From: a virus
DNA: 21,641 nucleotides
Virus record (IMG/VR): IMGVR_UViG_3300022937_000171
Span: 1 to 21,641 of that record
Direction: 5' to 3' (one strand)
Below, in pieces: positions 10,993-18,901 of this stretch (position 1 is the first letter of the stretch; each line of letters starts with the position of its first letter). A program made the position numbers and the translations under genes. The notes below the pieces were generated by a model that had not been told where the DNA came from, did not search any database, and saw only the letters and a list, made by a program, of their open reading frames with translations.

Positions 10993-11694
10993 ATGTCCTT
11001 ACCTACTCTGAATACACCAACTTATAATCTTACCGTTCCATCTACAAAACAAAGAATCAAATATAGACCCTTTGTTGTAAAAGAAGAAAAGATTCTTCTG
11101 ATGGCACTTGAATCTGAAGATGATAATCAAATTGCAGATGCGTTGAAATCAATTATCAATGCTTGTGTAACTACTAAAGATTTTGATTTTGATAAGTTGG
11201 CGACATTTGATATTGAATATATCTTTTTGAATATTAGAGGTAAATCCGTAGGAGAAGTAATTGAACTCATTGTGATTGCTCCAGATGATGGAGAAACTGA
11301 AGTAAGAATTAACATCAACATTGATGATGTTAAGGTAAAATTTGATAAAGATCACTCTAATAAAATTCAATTATCTGATGATCTTTGGGTAGAGATGAAG
11401 TATCCTGGTTTGGATAGTTTTACTAAACCTCAAGAGGATATTAATGATACATTTGAGTTTGTTGCAAATTCTATTGAAAAGATTTACAATGAAGAGGATG
11501 TTTGGGATAGTTCAACAACAACTTCTGAAGAATTTGTATCTTTCCTTGAGAGCATGAGTAGCAAACAATTTAATGATGTTCAAAAGTTCTTTGAAACCAT
11601 GCCTTCTTTAAAGCATGAGGTTAAATTTACTAATCCCAATACTCAGGTTGAATCAACCTATGTTGTTGAAGGACTTGCTAATTTTTTCGGATAA
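10993..11694 (+). CDS. 26: Baseplate hub assembly protein gp26 (T4_baseplate family)
   Basis: This 233-residue protein shows the T4_baseplate family (PF12322-type) pattern. It has an N-terminal Y-N-L-T-V-P-S-T-K segment, R-P-F-V-V-K-E-E-K-I-L-L-M-A-L-E-S, then I-I-N-A-C-V, F-D-I-E-Y-I-F-L-N-I-R and a D-D-L-W-V-E-M-K-Y-P block. T4 gp26 is needed for hub assembly. It has GGAG before its ATG. Its last codons contain the slippery heptamer T-TTT-TTC (11682-11688), one codon before its stop, and the gp51 frame is exactly -1 from it. So a second product, a gp26-gp51 fusion of about 295 residues, is possible. Confidence 0.85.
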   Translation: MSLPTLNTPTYNLTVPSTKQRIKYRPFVVKEEKILLMALESEDDNQIADALKSIINACVTTKDFDFDKLATFDIEYIFLNIRGKSVGEVIELIVIAPDDGETEVRININIDDVKVKFDKDHSNKIQLSDDLWVEMKYPGLDSFTKPQEDINDTFEFVANSIEKIYNEEDVWDSSTTTSEEFVSFLESMSSKQFNDVQKFFETMPSLKHEVKFTNPNTQVESTYVVEGLANFFG

Positions 11695-11723
11695 GCCTCT
11701 TCCATAATTCCTTAGAGAATTAT
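11682..11723 (+). promoter_or_regulatory. Candidate -1 ribosomal frameshift signal (slippery site plus hairpin)
   Basis: T-TTT-TTC (11682-11688) fits the X-XXY-YYZ slippery form in the gp26 frame. One codon later is the gp26 stop (TAA, 11692-11694). A 7-bp hairpin, ATAATTC (704-710) with GAATTAT (717-723), counting within 11 kb, follows 15 bases after the heptamer. The hairpin is A/T-rich and its spacer is longer than usual, so it would be a weak stimulator. Confidence 0.5.
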
Positions 11724-11879
11724 TACAGAACTAATTTTTCATTAATGCAACATCATAAGTACAGTTTAACTGAACTTGATGGTCTGATTCCTTGGGAGAA
11801 AGACATTTACATTGCATTATTGAAACAGTATCTGGAAGAGGAAAGACAAAGAATCGAACAGCAAAAACACCAAAGTTAA
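11688..11879 (+). CDS. 51: Baseplate hub assembly catalyst gp51 (no standard start; -1 frame of gp26)
   Basis: The frame is open from 11682 to a TAA at 11877-11879 and encodes a conserved-looking run: S-L-F-H-N-S-L-E-N-Y-Y-R-T-N-F-S-L, then Y-S-L-T-E-L-D-G-L-I-P-W-E-K-D-I-Y, and a charged helix ending in E-E-E-R-Q-R-I-E. This agrees, from memory, with short gp51 proteins of cyanophages. There is no ATG before 11745, which would remove half of the conserved part; only an ATA (11691) overlaps the gp26 stop. Entry by frameshift from gp26 is the best explanation; re-initiation at ATA, or an ATG 11745 start giving 44 residues, are the alternatives. It overlaps the next gene in TAATG. Confidence 0.65.
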   Translation, partial: RISLFHNSLENYYRTNFSLMQHHKYSLTELDGLIPWEKDIYIALLKQYLEEERQRIEQQKHQS

Positions 11880-14704
11880 TGAAATCAAAGCAAATAGGAT
11901 TAACTGAATATAATGATGCCATACTTTCGGTGTATGGTGCGAATCCTGTTGCCGCTTTGAGAGGGACGAAGACAACTGCTCCAGATTTAAAAAAGGATCC
12001 TAAAAAAGAATCGAAACCTAAAGCAGGGACTCTTGTAAAGGAAACACTTCGTCTTAGAAATACTGCAGTTTTAAACTTAAAACTTGCAAAGAAAATACAG
12101 AAGTATGAAAAGGAGAGGTTATCTCAACTTAAATCATTATTAGATAAGGATGAAACTTCTGAGCAAAAGGGTAATAACTCTCAGGAAAAGAGAGAAGAAG
12201 AGGAATTATCTAAAAAGAATTCTCCTTGGTTTAAAAATCTTTTAAATAAATTAAGGAATCTTGTAAAGAAGACACTAAAGAAACTTTATAAGAAATTAGT
12301 TCCTAAATCAGTACGTTCTCGGTTAAGATTGCTGAGAAGAAGAGTTAATGCTTTTAAGAGAAGAGTAAATGTTAATATAAAAAGGCAGTGGAGAAACTTC
12401 ACTAAACCCCTTAGACAAGCTAGAAGATTTATTGCTCCAATCAAGAGAAACATTGGGGTAAGATTTCGACGTGCTCAAAGAAATTTAACAAGACCTTTTA
12501 GACAAACTAAAAGATTTGCTGAAACTGTAGTTAAGAATCCAAAGAAGGCATTACTGCAAACTCAACAGGCACTTACAAAAGCAAAAGATGCAGTTACTTT
12601 TGGTGCCACTAAAGTAAGGCAGTTTGCTGAGCCTGGAGTTAGGGCAGGTAGGGAGTTTGTTGGTCAGAAGGTTAATCAGGGTAAGAAAATTGTAAGTGAG
12701 GGATGGGATACTGCTAGATCAGTATATAATTTCTCACGAGAAATGATCTCCCAAGCAAGTGGTAAACCACCTGTCCCAGGGGGAGGAAATAGATTTGGAT
12801 TTCTCAATAGATTTTCAGGTATTGGTCAAAAATTAAATAAAGCAAGAATGGGTGTCATGGGGGGCATTCAATCTGCCGTTAAGGGTGGTCAACAGATTGG
12901 AGAAGCAATTGCTTCTAGGTGGTCAAAGTGGAAAGCAGTTCTTACTGATCCACAAACTTATGCAAAAATCAAAGAGGGTGCAAATGCAGCATTTAATAAA
13001 TTAAAAGGTGCTGCACAAAAATTATATGATGATTTTATTACTTGGTTAGCAGGAACAAAGTGGTTTAGAGAAGCAATAGAAAGTAGAATTGGTAGAAAAG
13101 TAACAGAGATTTTAATTAAAAAGGGTGGGAAATTAGCACTTAAGAAAATTCTTACTAGATTAGTTGTTGGTCTTGGTACTGTTCTTGCTCTTTGGGAAAT
13201 GGTAGAACGTTGGAGTAAGGGTGATTATGAAGGTGCTGCATTGTCTGCATTAGGTGCTATTCCATTTATAGGATTAGTTGCTGTTGTTGTTGATATTTTA
13301 AGAGAACTGTTTCCAAAGTCCTGGGAAAGTATTGTCTCTCAAATGACAGGTAAGACAGAAGAAGAGAGAAATGAGGGTATTAAAAAAACATACGATGCTA
13401 CAGTTAAGGGATACGAAGATTATGGCACTGGCATAAATGATGCTGGATTTGGTGCTGGGTTTGCTGCAGCGGCGGAAGGTATGGAAACTGGCAATACCCC
13501 ACAGATGGTTATTGTCGGAGATGGGGGTGAGGAGGAATTCATCGTTCCAAAAAGTAAACTTGCATACTTCTTAGGATCTGAAACTGCACTTGAGTTCTTG
13601 AATTTTGGAAGTGGGCAATTAATTTCCTCTGTTCAAGAATATCTGGATAAAACTGGAATTGGTAGCAAGGCGAAAGCATCTATCAGAGAATTATCTGAAG
13701 TTAAAGATTTACCAGTACAGAAAGGGAATAATATTAGAGGCATACAACCAGTTGGAAGTAAAATTGGTGATATTGTTAATAAAGTTATAAAATTCCTTAC
13801 CGAAGGATTTGAAAGTATTTTGGAACCAATTAAAAAGATCTTTGATTGGATTAAGAAAAATGTTTTAGAGAATCCATTAGTGCGTGGTGCTATGGGACTT
13901 GCTGAAGGTGTTACTAATTTCTTTTTGGGTGGACCAGCACAAGCAGCAAGTGGACCACCAGCGGCAGTTGATCCTTATACTGGATCAATTAGTGGTGATA
14001 CTTTTATGCCACTTGCTAGTGCTGACGCTGCTGGTGGTAGAACTTCTGCCCAATCATTTGGTGATACTGCTGCACGTGGGGGTAGAAAACATTTAGGTAT
14101 TGATATTACAGAACACTCAAGAGCAGATTCTAGAGCACCAGTAGTTGCATATAAAACAGGAACAGTAACTGTTGCTCAAGCGAGTAATGTTTACCCATAT
14201 GGAGAAGTGATGGTTGATCATGGAAATGGATTATCAACGAGATATCTGCACATCACCCCATCTTCAAATGTTAGAGTTGGAAAAAAAGTGTATGGTGGTC
14301 AAGAAGTTGGAAAATTATACAAGTACTATAGTAGTAGCGGTGGAGAACAAACTCACTTACACTTTGAGGTATATCAAGATGGAAAAATTGTTGATCCAAC
14401 TTCATATGTAAGAAACGCAAAGAATAAACTTTCTGCACCTCTTACTGCAGCAAGGGCACAAGCGCAACACACAGCAGCATCAACTCCAGCGACTCCAATA
14501 AATAAAGATACTACAGTAGGTGAAGATCCTAACGTTGCTGCGGAAGAAGGTATGTTTATGGATTTCCTGTCAAGAAAAGCATCCCAACCATCACAATCAG
14601 CGCCACAACTCATTCCAATGCCCATTCCATTTGGCGGTCTTTCTTTAGCATCTGGTAGAACCCATAGTCCAGCATGGGGTCATGCAAGCGTAATAGGTAA
14701 CTAA
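11879..14704 (+). CDS. Giant tape-measure-like hub protein with M23 endopeptidase domain
   Basis: From ATG 11879 (TAATG overlap with gp51) it has 941 residues. An N-terminal coiled-coil region is followed by a very basic stretch (about 120-240, many K and R). Two hydrophobic segments lie near 424-445 and 452-474, and the motif V-I-V-G-D-G-G-E-E-E-F-I-V-P-K-S-K, which I know from tape-measure proteins, follows. An M23 (LytM-type) peptidase domain spans about 725-850, with zinc ligands H738 and D742 in H-L-G-I-D, and H828 in H826-L-H828-F-E-V. It should cut peptide cross-links in the cell wall during entry. By position and architecture it replaces T4 gp29 as a candidate tail-length ruler. An in-frame ATG at 11792 lies inside gp51 and is not preferred. 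Confidence 0.8.
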   Translation: MKSKQIGLTEYNDAILSVYGANPVAALRGTKTTAPDLKKDPKKESKPKAGTLVKETLRLRNTAVLNLKLAKKIQKYEKERLSQLKSLLDKDETSEQKGNNSQEKREEEELSKKNSPWFKNLLNKLRNLVKKTLKKLYKKLVPKSVRSRLRLLRRRVNAFKRRVNVNIKRQWRNFTKPLRQARRFIAPIKRNIGVRFRRAQRNLTRPFRQTKRFAETVVKNPKKALLQTQQALTKAKDAVTFGATKVRQFAEPGVRAGREFVGQKVNQGKKIVSEGWDTARSVYNFSREMISQASGKPPVPGGGNRFGFLNRFSGIGQKLNKARMGVMGGIQSAVKGGQQIGEAIASRWSKWKAVLTDPQTYAKIKEGANAAFNKLKGAAQKLYDDFITWLAGTKWFREAIESRIGRKVTEILIKKGGKLALKKILTRLVVGLGTVLALWEMVERWSKGDYEGAALSALGAIPFIGLVAVVVDILRELFPKSWESIVSQMTGKTEEERNEGIKKTYDATVKGYEDYGTGINDAGFGAGFAAAAEGMETGNTPQMVIVGDGGEEEFIVPKSKLAYFLGSETALEFLNFGSGQLISSVQEYLDKTGIGSKAKASIRELSEVKDLPVQKGNNIRGIQPVGSKIGDIVNKVIKFLTEGFESILEPIKKIFDWIKKNVLENPLVRGAMGLAEGVTNFFLGGPAQAASGPPAAVDPYTGSISGDTFMPLASADAAGGRTSAQSFGDTAARGGRKHLGIDITEHSRADSRAPVVAYKTGTVTVAQASNVYPYGEVMVDHGNGLSTRYLHITPSSNVRVGKKVYGGQEVGKLYKYYSSSGGEQTHLHFEVYQDGKIVDPTSYVRNAKNKLSAPLTAARAQAQHTAASTPATPINKDTTVGEDPNVAAEEGMFMDFLSRKASQPSQSAPQLIPMPIPFGGLSLASGRTHSPAWGHASVIGN

Positions 14705-14710
14705 TAAGTC

Positions 14711-17347
14711 ATGTATAATTCATTACCACCAGCAGGGACTCTAGATCCACAACAACCTTGGTATAAAGCAAAGATTAGTGCTGCTCATTGGGATAGATTT
14801 AAAGCAAAACTTATTGGTGGAAAAGATGCATCGGGCACCTCATACTTTTCCATGGTTAATGTCTCTGGCGCTGAGGCAGATAAGATTATTGCTAATATGA
14901 AGAAGGATCCCAGAGGGTATCCTCAAATGAATCAAGGTGATCCAGAAGCTCTGTATAATTACCAAACTTGGGTTGTATCTGAGTATCTTGGATCCAAACC
15001 AAAGGGATCTAAATTAATTGATGATAAGGATGTAGGTAAGACATCAGAAGGTAAAACCACTGTCTACAAAGCAGCAGATAAGTTTGTAGATGATAAGAAA
15101 GAATTCTCAAAAGCACAAGAACAAAAACTTGAAGATGCTTTAGAAGAAACATCTGATAAGATTATGGATGCTGTCGATGAATTAATCGCACAGCAGAAGC
15201 AGGCATTTGAAGAATTTAAGAGGCAGGAAGCAGAAAAGGTAAAACAGAGAATTGCTGGATACGATCAATATCCAGAAGCAATTGGTCCAAAAGAACCCCC
15301 AAAACAGCAGTATAAAAAACCAATTGGACCAAATCCAATGCAGGGTCCAAAACCTATGCAGGGTCCAAAGGAACCACCTAAGAAATCAAGTTCTTCGGAT
15401 GATGATTCCTGGGAATCTGAAGTCAATGATCAACTTGGAACAAAGTTAGATGAGTTGATCCAACAAGTTAAAAGTGATCCTCTTCCACAACCTGCCAAAA
15501 CTAAGAGAAGAAAAACCAAAGGCAAAAAAGCACTTCAAAGAAAGAGTGCTAGAATGGATGCCAAAGAGATGGGTGTTGGTGCATCTCTTACTGAAATTAT
15601 GACAAACGTAGTTGAAACTAGAGAGGCGTTATTTGATCTTTACAAAGTTACTAAAGAAAGATTTGCCTTTAAGAAAAAGATTGACAAGCGTCTGACTGCA
15701 TCTCTTGAGGCAAAGTTAAGAGAAAAGCAAATTGAAAAAAGTTCAGATAAAGATGATTCTTCTAAACTAAATCCTTTAGAAGATAAAAAGAAAAAGAAAC
15801 CAGGAATGCTCAAAAAGAGTTTGATTGATGGTTTAATTGGTGGTGCCATCATGATGACTCTTCCGTTGGTTATTGAGGGATTGAGACCTTTCTTACAAAG
15901 AGATAGGGAGAATGAAGGTGATAATCAATGGTGGGATTTCTTAGATTTATTTCCTAATGAAATTAAAAAGGATTTAGATGAAGAACCACCGTTAGAAGCA
16001 GAACCAGTTCCTGAGGAACCAACAAGTATTGCAGACCAATCTGGGGGACTTGGAACACCTGATCCAGTTCCTGCGCCTTCATCACCTACTCCTGCTGCAC
16101 CTGCTCCTGCTGCACCTACTCCCCAGGCACCTACACCTACCCCTGTCCCATTAAGAGATACTAGTATTCCTGGTGATGCTGACTATCGAGGACCACAACC
16201 AATGCCTTTAAGGGCAGCAGCAGTAGGTGGTAAATTTGTGAAGGGTAAGCACAAACCACTCAGACCTATTTCCGCACCACCTATTAAGAATCCAGTAGTA
16301 AAAAAATTAACTAAACCACTTTCTTCTGCAATCACTTTACCTCAAAAGGTTGCTGCTGCTGGAGTCCTTTCTTTTGCTAACAGTATCCTTTCCCCATTCT
16401 CTGCATTTTTGCCAGATTCTGGAAAGCAATTCATCAAGAACATTTATAATGAAGTTGCTAAATCCTCTGGACTCAGTGGTATGAATCTGCAACTTGGTAA
16501 AACCACTGATGTTTTTGAAAAGGTTAAAAAGTTTATTGAGGGCATTCTTAATAGTTTACTTGGTGGAGCAGCAAATGCAGCAGAGGTTCCTAGGGTTCCA
16601 TCTACCCCTGGAGGAGATGGTGGAGACGTAAGTGTAACCGATGATGAAGAAGAATACTTACTTCGTTTAATGATTGCAGAGGCGGGTGGTGAAGGTAAGT
16701 TAGGAATGGCAGCAGTTGCAAAATCTGTAATGAACAGGGCAGGACTTATTCAAAGTGGCAAAGTCGGTGCTGGTACATTTTTGGCAGATAGTGGTAGTGT
16801 AAAAGATGTTATTGATGCTGAAAATCAATATCAACCAGTAAGAGAAGGAAAACTGAATAGAAATTTATCTGATGCAGAAAGAAAGAGGGCAAAGGAAGCA
16901 CTATCTCTTGCAAGAGATGGTGGTGGAATGCGTGCGGCGTTAAAGGCAGAAGGTATGAGTGAAGATCAAATTAATAAAGTTATGGCATCCACTGGATTTA
17001 GAACTGGTGATGCATTTAATGATGCTTCACAGAATGTAAATAATGTACAACTTGGAAATCACGTATTCAATACCGCAGGAAATAAAGATCTGCTTTCTCT
17101 GGGTGCTACTATGCAAACACCAAAGAAAGTTTCTGGATTAACTCCAAATCAAGCAGATCTAGATTGGTATGCTAGTCAAACAAAAACTGGAAGAGATCAA
17201 ACACCACCAGGTGCTGCTCCTAAAAGGAATATCTTCCAACAACTTCTCCCTCAGATGTTCCCAGCACCAGCACCACAAGTTAAACCAGAAATGCCTGTAA
17301 CTCCTACTCCATCAGGCAGAAGAGCACCACAACAACCAGGAAGTTAA
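14711..17347 (+). CDS. Giant hub/tail protein with SleB-type cell-wall hydrolase domain
   Basis: This 878-residue protein has an N-terminal globular part (about 1-110) and a coiled-coil Glu/Lys-rich part (about 125-185) with P-I-G-P and M-Q-G-P repeats (about 190-225). A basic Lys-rich stretch (about 260-300) is followed by one hydrophobic segment (about 370-395: G-L-I-G-G-A-I-M-M-T-L-P-L-V-I-E), then a Pro/Ala linker (about 450-485). Near the C-terminus (about 645-800) is a SleB/cell-wall-hydrolase-2-type domain, with E657 in M-I-A-E-A-G-G-E as the likely catalytic acid and L-G-N-H-V-F-N-T as the later motif. It should cleave glycan strands. It lies six bases after the M23 gene. Tape-measure-like features suggest a second ruler or plug in the tail tube; this is inference. 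Confidence 0.75.
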   Translation: MYNSLPPAGTLDPQQPWYKAKISAAHWDRFKAKLIGGKDASGTSYFSMVNVSGAEADKIIANMKKDPRGYPQMNQGDPEALYNYQTWVVSEYLGSKPKGSKLIDDKDVGKTSEGKTTVYKAADKFVDDKKEFSKAQEQKLEDALEETSDKIMDAVDELIAQQKQAFEEFKRQEAEKVKQRIAGYDQYPEAIGPKEPPKQQYKKPIGPNPMQGPKPMQGPKEPPKKSSSSDDDSWESEVNDQLGTKLDELIQQVKSDPLPQPAKTKRRKTKGKKALQRKSARMDAKEMGVGASLTEIMTNVVETREALFDLYKVTKERFAFKKKIDKRLTASLEAKLREKQIEKSSDKDDSSKLNPLEDKKKKKPGMLKKSLIDGLIGGAIMMTLPLVIEGLRPFLQRDRENEGDNQWWDFLDLFPNEIKKDLDEEPPLEAEPVPEEPTSIADQSGGLGTPDPVPAPSSPTPAAPAPAAPTPQAPTPTPVPLRDTSIPGDADYRGPQPMPLRAAAVGGKFVKGKHKPLRPISAPPIKNPVVKKLTKPLSSAITLPQKVAAAGVLSFANSILSPFSAFLPDSGKQFIKNIYNEVAKSSGLSGMNLQLGKTTDVFEKVKKFIEGILNSLLGGAANAAEVPRVPSTPGGDGGDVSVTDDEEEYLLRLMIAEAGGEGKLGMAAVAKSVMNRAGLIQSGKVGAGTFLADSGSVKDVIDAENQYQPVREGKLNRNLSDAERKRAKEALSLARDGGGMRAALKAEGMSEDQINKVMASTGFRTGDAFNDASQNVNNVQLGNHVFNTAGNKDLLSLGATMQTPKKVSGLTPNQADLDWYASQTKTGRDQTPPGAAPKRNIFQQLLPQMFPAPAPQVKPEMPVTPTPSGRRAPQQPGS
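15281..15382 (+). repeat. Short Pro/Gly repeat in the SleB protein
   Basis: The protein repeats G-P-K-E-P-P-K and M-Q-G-P-K/N-P (with P-I-G-P units), encoded by imperfect tandem copies such as ATGCAGGGTCCAAA, seen twice about 20 bases apart. It looks like a flexible linker. Confidence 0.6.
16061..16150 (+). repeat. Pro/Ala-rich linker repeat in the SleB protein
   Basis: About 30 codons of P-x-P-A/T units (A-P-A-A-P-T-P, etc.), with CCTGCTGCACCT repeated, join the hydrophobic N-terminal part to the region before the hydrolase. This is a typical disordered linker, prone to length change by slippage. Confidence 0.7.
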
Positions 17348-18673: not shown

Positions 18674-18901
18674 ATGGAAAACATCGAAACCCATATTGAG
18701 AAGGACAAAGAGATTCTTCAGAATCCTATGACCTCTCCACAACAACGTCGTCATATTGAAGAAGAACTGCACGACTTAGAGGAATACGTAGAGCATCACA
18801 AAGCAGACATTGCCGCAGGTGATCATCATGATCCAACGCCACTTGAACTCTATTGTGATCAGAATCCAAGCGCATTAGAATGTAAAATCCACGATAATTA
18901 A
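18674..18901 (+). CDS. Small protein with CP12-like C-terminal motif
   Basis: This 75-residue protein is mostly helical and charged (E-K-D-K-E-I-L; R-R-H-I-E-E-E-L-H-D-L-E-E), with a His/Asp-rich hinge (H-H-K-A-D-I-A-A-G-D-H-H-D). It ends T-P-L-E-L-Y-C61-D-Q-N-P-S-A-L-E-C70-K-I-H-D-N. This end matches the GAPDH-binding tail of CP12 (D-P-L-E-x-x-C-x-x-N-P-x-x-x-E-C-R-x-Y-D-N) with the exact eight-residue gap between the cysteines. The CP12 core A-W-D-x-V-E-E-L and the N-terminal Cys pair, which bind PRK, are missing. It may therefore bind GAPDH only. It lies between gp27 and gp5, suggesting late expression. Function is inferred. Confidence 0.7.
   Translation: MENIETHIEKDKEILQNPMTSPQQRRHIEEELHDLEEYVEHHKADIAAGDHHDPTPLELYCDQNPSALECKIHDN

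Follow-up and report, generated by a model that had tools for sequence, protein, structure and literature searches.

How is the protein that relatives of this virus annotate as gp51 produced from a locus where its reading frame overlaps the end of gp26 and offers no ATG ahead of its conserved domain? The question arises in a 21,641-nucleotide stretch of viral DNA (IMG/VR record IMGVR_UViG_3300022937_000171, positions 1 to 21,641), hereafter the window. Our analysis indicates that gp26 and 'gp51' are very probably a single gene that gives rise to two proteins by −1 ribosomal frameshifting. Most ribosomes would terminate at the TAA at 11692 and yield gp26, the short form of a tail assembly chaperone (TAC-N, 233 amino acids), and presumably a minority would slip by −1 at the heptamer T_TTT_TTC, with tRNA-Phe in the P and A sites pairing anew on TTT TTT. 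The slipped ribosomes would read on to 11879 and produce a gp26–gp51 fusion of 295 amino acids, the long form (TAC-NC). The elements of the locus on which this proposal rests are the following:

10993–11694, + strand: gp26 (TAC-N), the 0-frame product of 233 amino acids, T4_baseplate family (PF12322, E = 1.1e-66; phrog_150, E = 1.4e-70).
11682–11688, + strand: putative slippery heptamer T_TTT_TTC for −1 frameshifting, in the 0-frame register (X_XXY_YYZ), recognized by sequence and conservation.
11692–11694, + strand: 0-frame stop codon TAA of gp26, one codon past the heptamer.
11682–11879, + strand: −1 frame extension (TAC-C; annotated as gp51 in relatives), 65 residues from the re-read FF (phrog_634, E = 4.8e-28; supported also by Ka/Ks, the ratio of nonsynonymous to synonymous substitution rates).
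11745–11747, + strand: first ATG of the −1 frame, within the conserved domain and without a Shine-Dalgarno sequence; probably an internal Met rather than a start.

Direct reading of the 3' end of the gp26 open reading frame (ORF), ...GCT AAT TTT TTC GGA TAA, bears out a preliminary description of this DNA, which had placed the heptamer in register at 11682–11688 and the gp26 stop one codon after it. As also described there, the −1 frame entered at the heptamer is the gp51 frame and lacks an ATG before 11745; it starts FFRISLFHNSLENYYRTNFSLM and remains open until the TAA at 11877–11879. The ATG at 11745 is the sole start-like codon in this frame before the end of the conserved core, and a search for a Shine-Dalgarno sequence upstream of it found none, the preceding bases being TTACAGAACTAATTTTTCATTA. 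The predicted fusion, previously estimated at about 295 residues, comprises exactly 295, with the junction ...EGLANFFRISLFH..., which in terms of predicted tryptic peptides would appear as ...VVEGLANFFR followed by ISLFHNSLENYYR. The PF12322 match of gp26 itself scores 225.1 bits, above the curated cut-off of 24.5. On the + strand of the window, TTTTTTC is present only once, at the end of gp26. The motif is rarer in the window than expected, with 7 occurrences on both strands compared to 12.9 in shuffled sequences.

According to the preliminary description, conservation of the heptamer and of the missing gp51 start among cyanomyoviruses would support the frameshift. Two scans of viral contigs, one with gp26 and the other with a gp26 alignment, produced 160 loci, to which annotated phages were added; a gp26 profile detected a homologue in 178 sequences, which formed the set for counting the heptamer. 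An in-register TTTTTTN is retained within the last 25 gp26 codons in 173 of the 178 (the last base being C in 146, T in 25, and A and G in one each), so that the expected conservation of the heptamer is confirmed. The five sequences without it are T4, Vibrio phage D493, VAP7, and the Ackermannviridae-type IME250 and TASP06; in VAP7, the heptamer position reads GTTTTTC. In three loci in which the gp26 stop is differently placed (L044, L074 and L075), T_TTT_TTT is also present and the −1 frame is conserved from there. Because the heptamer was found in Stenotrophomonas phage Ps15, Vibrio phage EniLVp02, Aeromonas phage phiWae14, and Sinorhizobium phages phiM7 and phiM9, the site is not limited to cyanophages. 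As a separate observation, in four distant Vibrio and Ackermannviridae loci (L092, L093, L094 and L096) the −1 extension is open and the T6 run is replaced by GTTTTTC, GATTTTC or ACTTTTC; some of them show a TAATG overlap, perhaps an alternative route to the long form.

Conservation of the heptamer goes beyond what the encoded residues require. Among 78 representatives that are less than 80% identical to each other in the gp26 protein, the codons NNT TTT are invariant: TTT is used for the first Phe without exception, and the codon ahead of it always ends in T even though the residue varies (S, N, D, A, F or G). Given the gp26 codon usage, the probability of this invariance is about 1e-26 with representatives treated as independent, an approximation that is not far off because synonymous sites differ by about 0.56 even among the closer pairs. 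Other Phe-Phe pairs in the same genes are encoded by NNT TTT in only 1 of 73 cases, and exactly one codon separates the heptamer from the stop in 71 of the 78 representatives. The probability that the arrangement is due to chance or to a sequencing artefact, that is, a homopolymer error in the T6 run or a neutral overlap of ORFs, is negligible. Although indel errors are common at homopolymers and the window is A+T-rich, the same architecture recurs in 173 loci, including the isolates S-SRM01, S-RSM4, P-HM1, S-SM2 and phiM7, with both the stop and the −1 frame conserved, and this conservation refutes both a fortuitous heptamer and a homopolymer error.

The strongest argument against a separately started gp51 comes from the part of the −1 frame that precedes any start codon. 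The −1 extension begins at the heptamer and spans 58–69 amino acids in all 78 representatives. Codons 3–20 of this frame show a Ka/Ks of 0.12 over 1003 locus pairs and of 0.03 over the 13 pairs that involve the window; for the same bases in the two other frames, Ka/Ks exceeds 1.5. In 19 of the 78 representatives, the window included, there is no ATG, GTG or TTG up to codon 18. Thus, the −1 frame appears to be translated without a start codon of its own. The rival explanation holds that gp51 is a separate short protein initiated either at the ATG at 11745 or by ribosomes that terminate and reinitiate close to the gp26 stop, in line with the separate gp51 gene annotated in public records. In 34 of the 78 representatives (e.g., L082, L131 and L140), codon 5 of the −1 frame is indeed an ATG, only a few nucleotides past the gp26 stop, and some distant relatives (EniLVp02, Ps15, phiM9 and VAP7) show a TGATG or TAATG stop-start overlap. 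Therefore, reinitiation may contribute in the phages with the codon-5 ATG, yielding a separate gp51 besides the fusion. As a general account, however, separate initiation is highly unlikely because purifying selection acts strongly on the stretch that, in the window and in 18 further representatives, holds no start codon. Furthermore, the ATG at 11745 lies without a Shine-Dalgarno sequence inside the conserved domain, a separate gp51 would leave the invariant NNT TTT unexplained, the homologous domain is covalently fused in T4, and the Shine-Dalgarno-like element of the family (see below) lies about 23 nucleotides ahead of the codon-5 ATG, probably too far for initiation.

The two products also have counterparts in T4. 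As stated in the preliminary description, T4 gp26 and gp51 both belong to the T4_baseplate family (PF12322), with gp51 being the longer; its additional C-terminus matches phrog_634 (E = 1.2e-23), the family of the −1 frame product of the window, and a profile built from the fused proteins aligns across the corresponding junction of T4 gp51. Thus, the fusion would be the counterpart of T4 gp51, and gp26 the short form. In contrast to the window, gene 26 of T4 has neither the T6 run nor the heptamer, and T4 genes 26 and 51 are two separate, divergently transcribed genes. In cyanophages and marine vibriophages, gp51 has been reported to lack the first ~200 residues (Sullivan et al. 2010, PMC3037559), which we attribute to the annotation of the −1 part alone, as predicted under frameshifting. 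The putative slippery site, its conservation, the apparent −1 translation upstream of any start and the homology of the predicted fusion to T4 gp51 are all read from the sequence itself.

Two candidate stimulatory elements flank the heptamer:

11668–11673, + strand: Shine-Dalgarno-like GAAGGA, candidate upstream stimulator, 8 nucleotides ahead of the heptamer.
11704–11723, + strand: weak A+U-rich hairpin ATAATTC-CTTAGA-GAATTAT, 15 nucleotides past the heptamer.

At the level of the family, both types of signal are clear. The Glu located five codons ahead of the first Phe is encoded by GAG in 42 of 57 cases, compared to 31% in the genes (p = 4e-11), and the resulting GAG-GG, 8 nucleotides upstream of the heptamer, is complementary to the 16S rRNA tail. 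The mean pairing energy with this tail is −6.8 kcal/mol against −5.4 for synonymous shuffles (control, −2.0 against −2.2). Downstream, the family-wide mean folding z is −1.71 and −1.84 (standard error 0.2) for windows starting, respectively, 10 nucleotides before and 5 nucleotides after the end of the heptamer; elsewhere along the genes it is about −0.2 (50-nucleotide windows). One clade has a stem pairing offsets 12–22 with 32–42, in which one pair occurs as U-A, G-C, A-U and G-U; the loci of this clade were chosen after seeing their fold, which leaves the z-profile as the only unbiased evidence. No consensus hairpin common to all of the family emerged when one was sought, covariation being confined to that clade, and in the wider clade of the window neither RNAalifold nor pair counts detected independent covariation. 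We suggest tentatively, and with slightly less than even confidence, that a dnaX-like three-part signal (the Shine-Dalgarno-like GAG-GG 8 nucleotides upstream, the invariant T_TTT_TTY and a clade-specific downstream hairpin) tunes the ratio of TAC-N to TAC-NC in T4-like marine phages, and that T4 acquired its separate genes 26 and 51 through duplication of such a frameshifting ancestor.

Besides the codon-5 ATG, several observations weigh against our interpretation. The hairpin at 11704–11723 of the preliminary description does exist, its 7-bp stem being free of mismatches and its loop 6 nucleotides long, but it is weak: the folding z of −0.34 for the 65 nucleotides downstream of the heptamer is a chance-level structure, which led us to reject it as a strong stimulator. 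The structural signal is real at the family level and mostly positioned elsewhere than this hairpin. Similarly, synonymous shuffles showed the GAAGGA of the window to be only as strong as expected from the encoded residues. The stimulatory elements, clear across the family, are thus weak in the window itself.

The remaining reservations concern function. By analogy with lambda G/GT, both forms would act as chaperones of the tape measure while the tail is assembled, and the predicted 233- and 295-amino-acid products with a common N-terminal domain, together with T4 gp26 and gp51 as their equivalents, fit this comparison, which had already been drawn in the preliminary description. A profile of gp26 searched against PDB sequences returned nothing, and Foldseek alone gave no significant match to the gp26 model (AlphaFold2; predicted local distance difference test score, 88). 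Among the Foldseek candidates, the best alignments for residues 1–95 of the model were with 3FGX (Z 7.9), the HK97 tail assembly chaperone 2OB9 (7.7) and YqbN 3KLU (7.2), followed by matches at Z 5.1 or lower; such values, below 8, are not conclusive by themselves, and the model supports but does not prove a tail assembly chaperone role of gp26. The locus was described as lying upstream of a tape-measure-like gene, and a long ORF does follow, its start ATG at 11879 overlapping the gp51 stop as TAATG:

11879–14704, + strand: 941-amino-acid ORF with an M23 peptidase domain (PF01551, E = 3.8e-16), candidate tape measure or tail-channel protein.

This ORF gives no match to a tape-measure profile. 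The following long genes of S-SM2 and phiM7 yield weak tape-measure PHROG matches, and it is plausible that the ORF next to gp51 encodes the tape measure. Frameshifting could also be real and the pair aid baseplate-hub assembly in a manner other than as a tape-measure chaperone, as the missing tape-measure match and the description of T4 gp26 and gp51 as hub assembly chaperones, with gp51 required yet absent from the particle (PMC3004832), would allow. We consider this unlikely considering that the gp26 model resembles the HK97 chaperone and that the gene order is gp26–gp51 followed by a long ORF; moreover, the tape measure gp29 belongs to the T4 hub, and therefore the two readings overlap.

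The two successive long ORFs of the tail region, 11879–14704 and 14711–17347, contain different cell-wall hydrolase domains (M23 peptidase and Hydrolase_2, respectively), and the domain of the gene after gp51 varies among relatives (VanY, peptidase or transglycosylase). The window also encodes a CP12-domain protein (18674–18901; PF02672, E = 5.7e-11; phrog_627), flanked by genes for a tail protein and a gp5-like tail lysozyme; CP12 is a cyanophage gene for an inhibitor of the Calvin cycle.

Frameshifting at the gp26–gp51 junction would explain why gp51 looks truncated and lacks a start in the annotation of hundreds of genomes from cyanophages and vibriophages (one search returned 555 records), and such pairs are best annotated as a single gene subject to ribosomal slippage. 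It would also link gp26 and gp51, long known from the T4 hub but still poorly understood, to the general scheme of tail assembly chaperones, and the site, being conserved, lends itself to frameshift measurements in cyanobacteria.

According to the papers that cite their work (PMC10885494, PMC12846349), Vladimirov, Gautam and Davidson (2022, Virology 566:9) identified the TAC-N/TAC-NC chaperones of T4-like phages; the same papers cite a poly-T sequence for −1 slippage within TAC-N of these phages and, in some of them, a short gene and a longer fusion gene instead. Since T4-like chaperone genes have been described (Vladimirov et al. 2022), the gp26–gp51 frameshift is a well-supported case of a known mechanism rather than a new idea. 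Further detail on that mechanism may come from the stimulatory signals, with the three-part arrangement and its distribution among uncultivated phages. In their abstract, Vladimirov and colleagues reportedly describe frameshifting along with further mechanisms in T4-like phages. The E. coli dnaX signal has the same order of Shine-Dalgarno-like element, heptamer and downstream hairpin that is seen here at the family level, but combines an A6G heptamer with a stable hairpin, whereas that of the window is weak. The chaperone genes of Vandenendeviridae and Andersonviridae likewise carry a poly-T −1 frameshift site near the end of TAC-N, although with the motif GTTTTT and in phage families other than that of the window (PMC12846349). 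Finally, lambda G/GT (Xu, Hendrix and Duda 2004) differs in its slippery sequence, GGGAAAG instead of the TTTTTTC of the window, but shares with gp26–gp51 the C-terminal extension and the position before a long tail gene.
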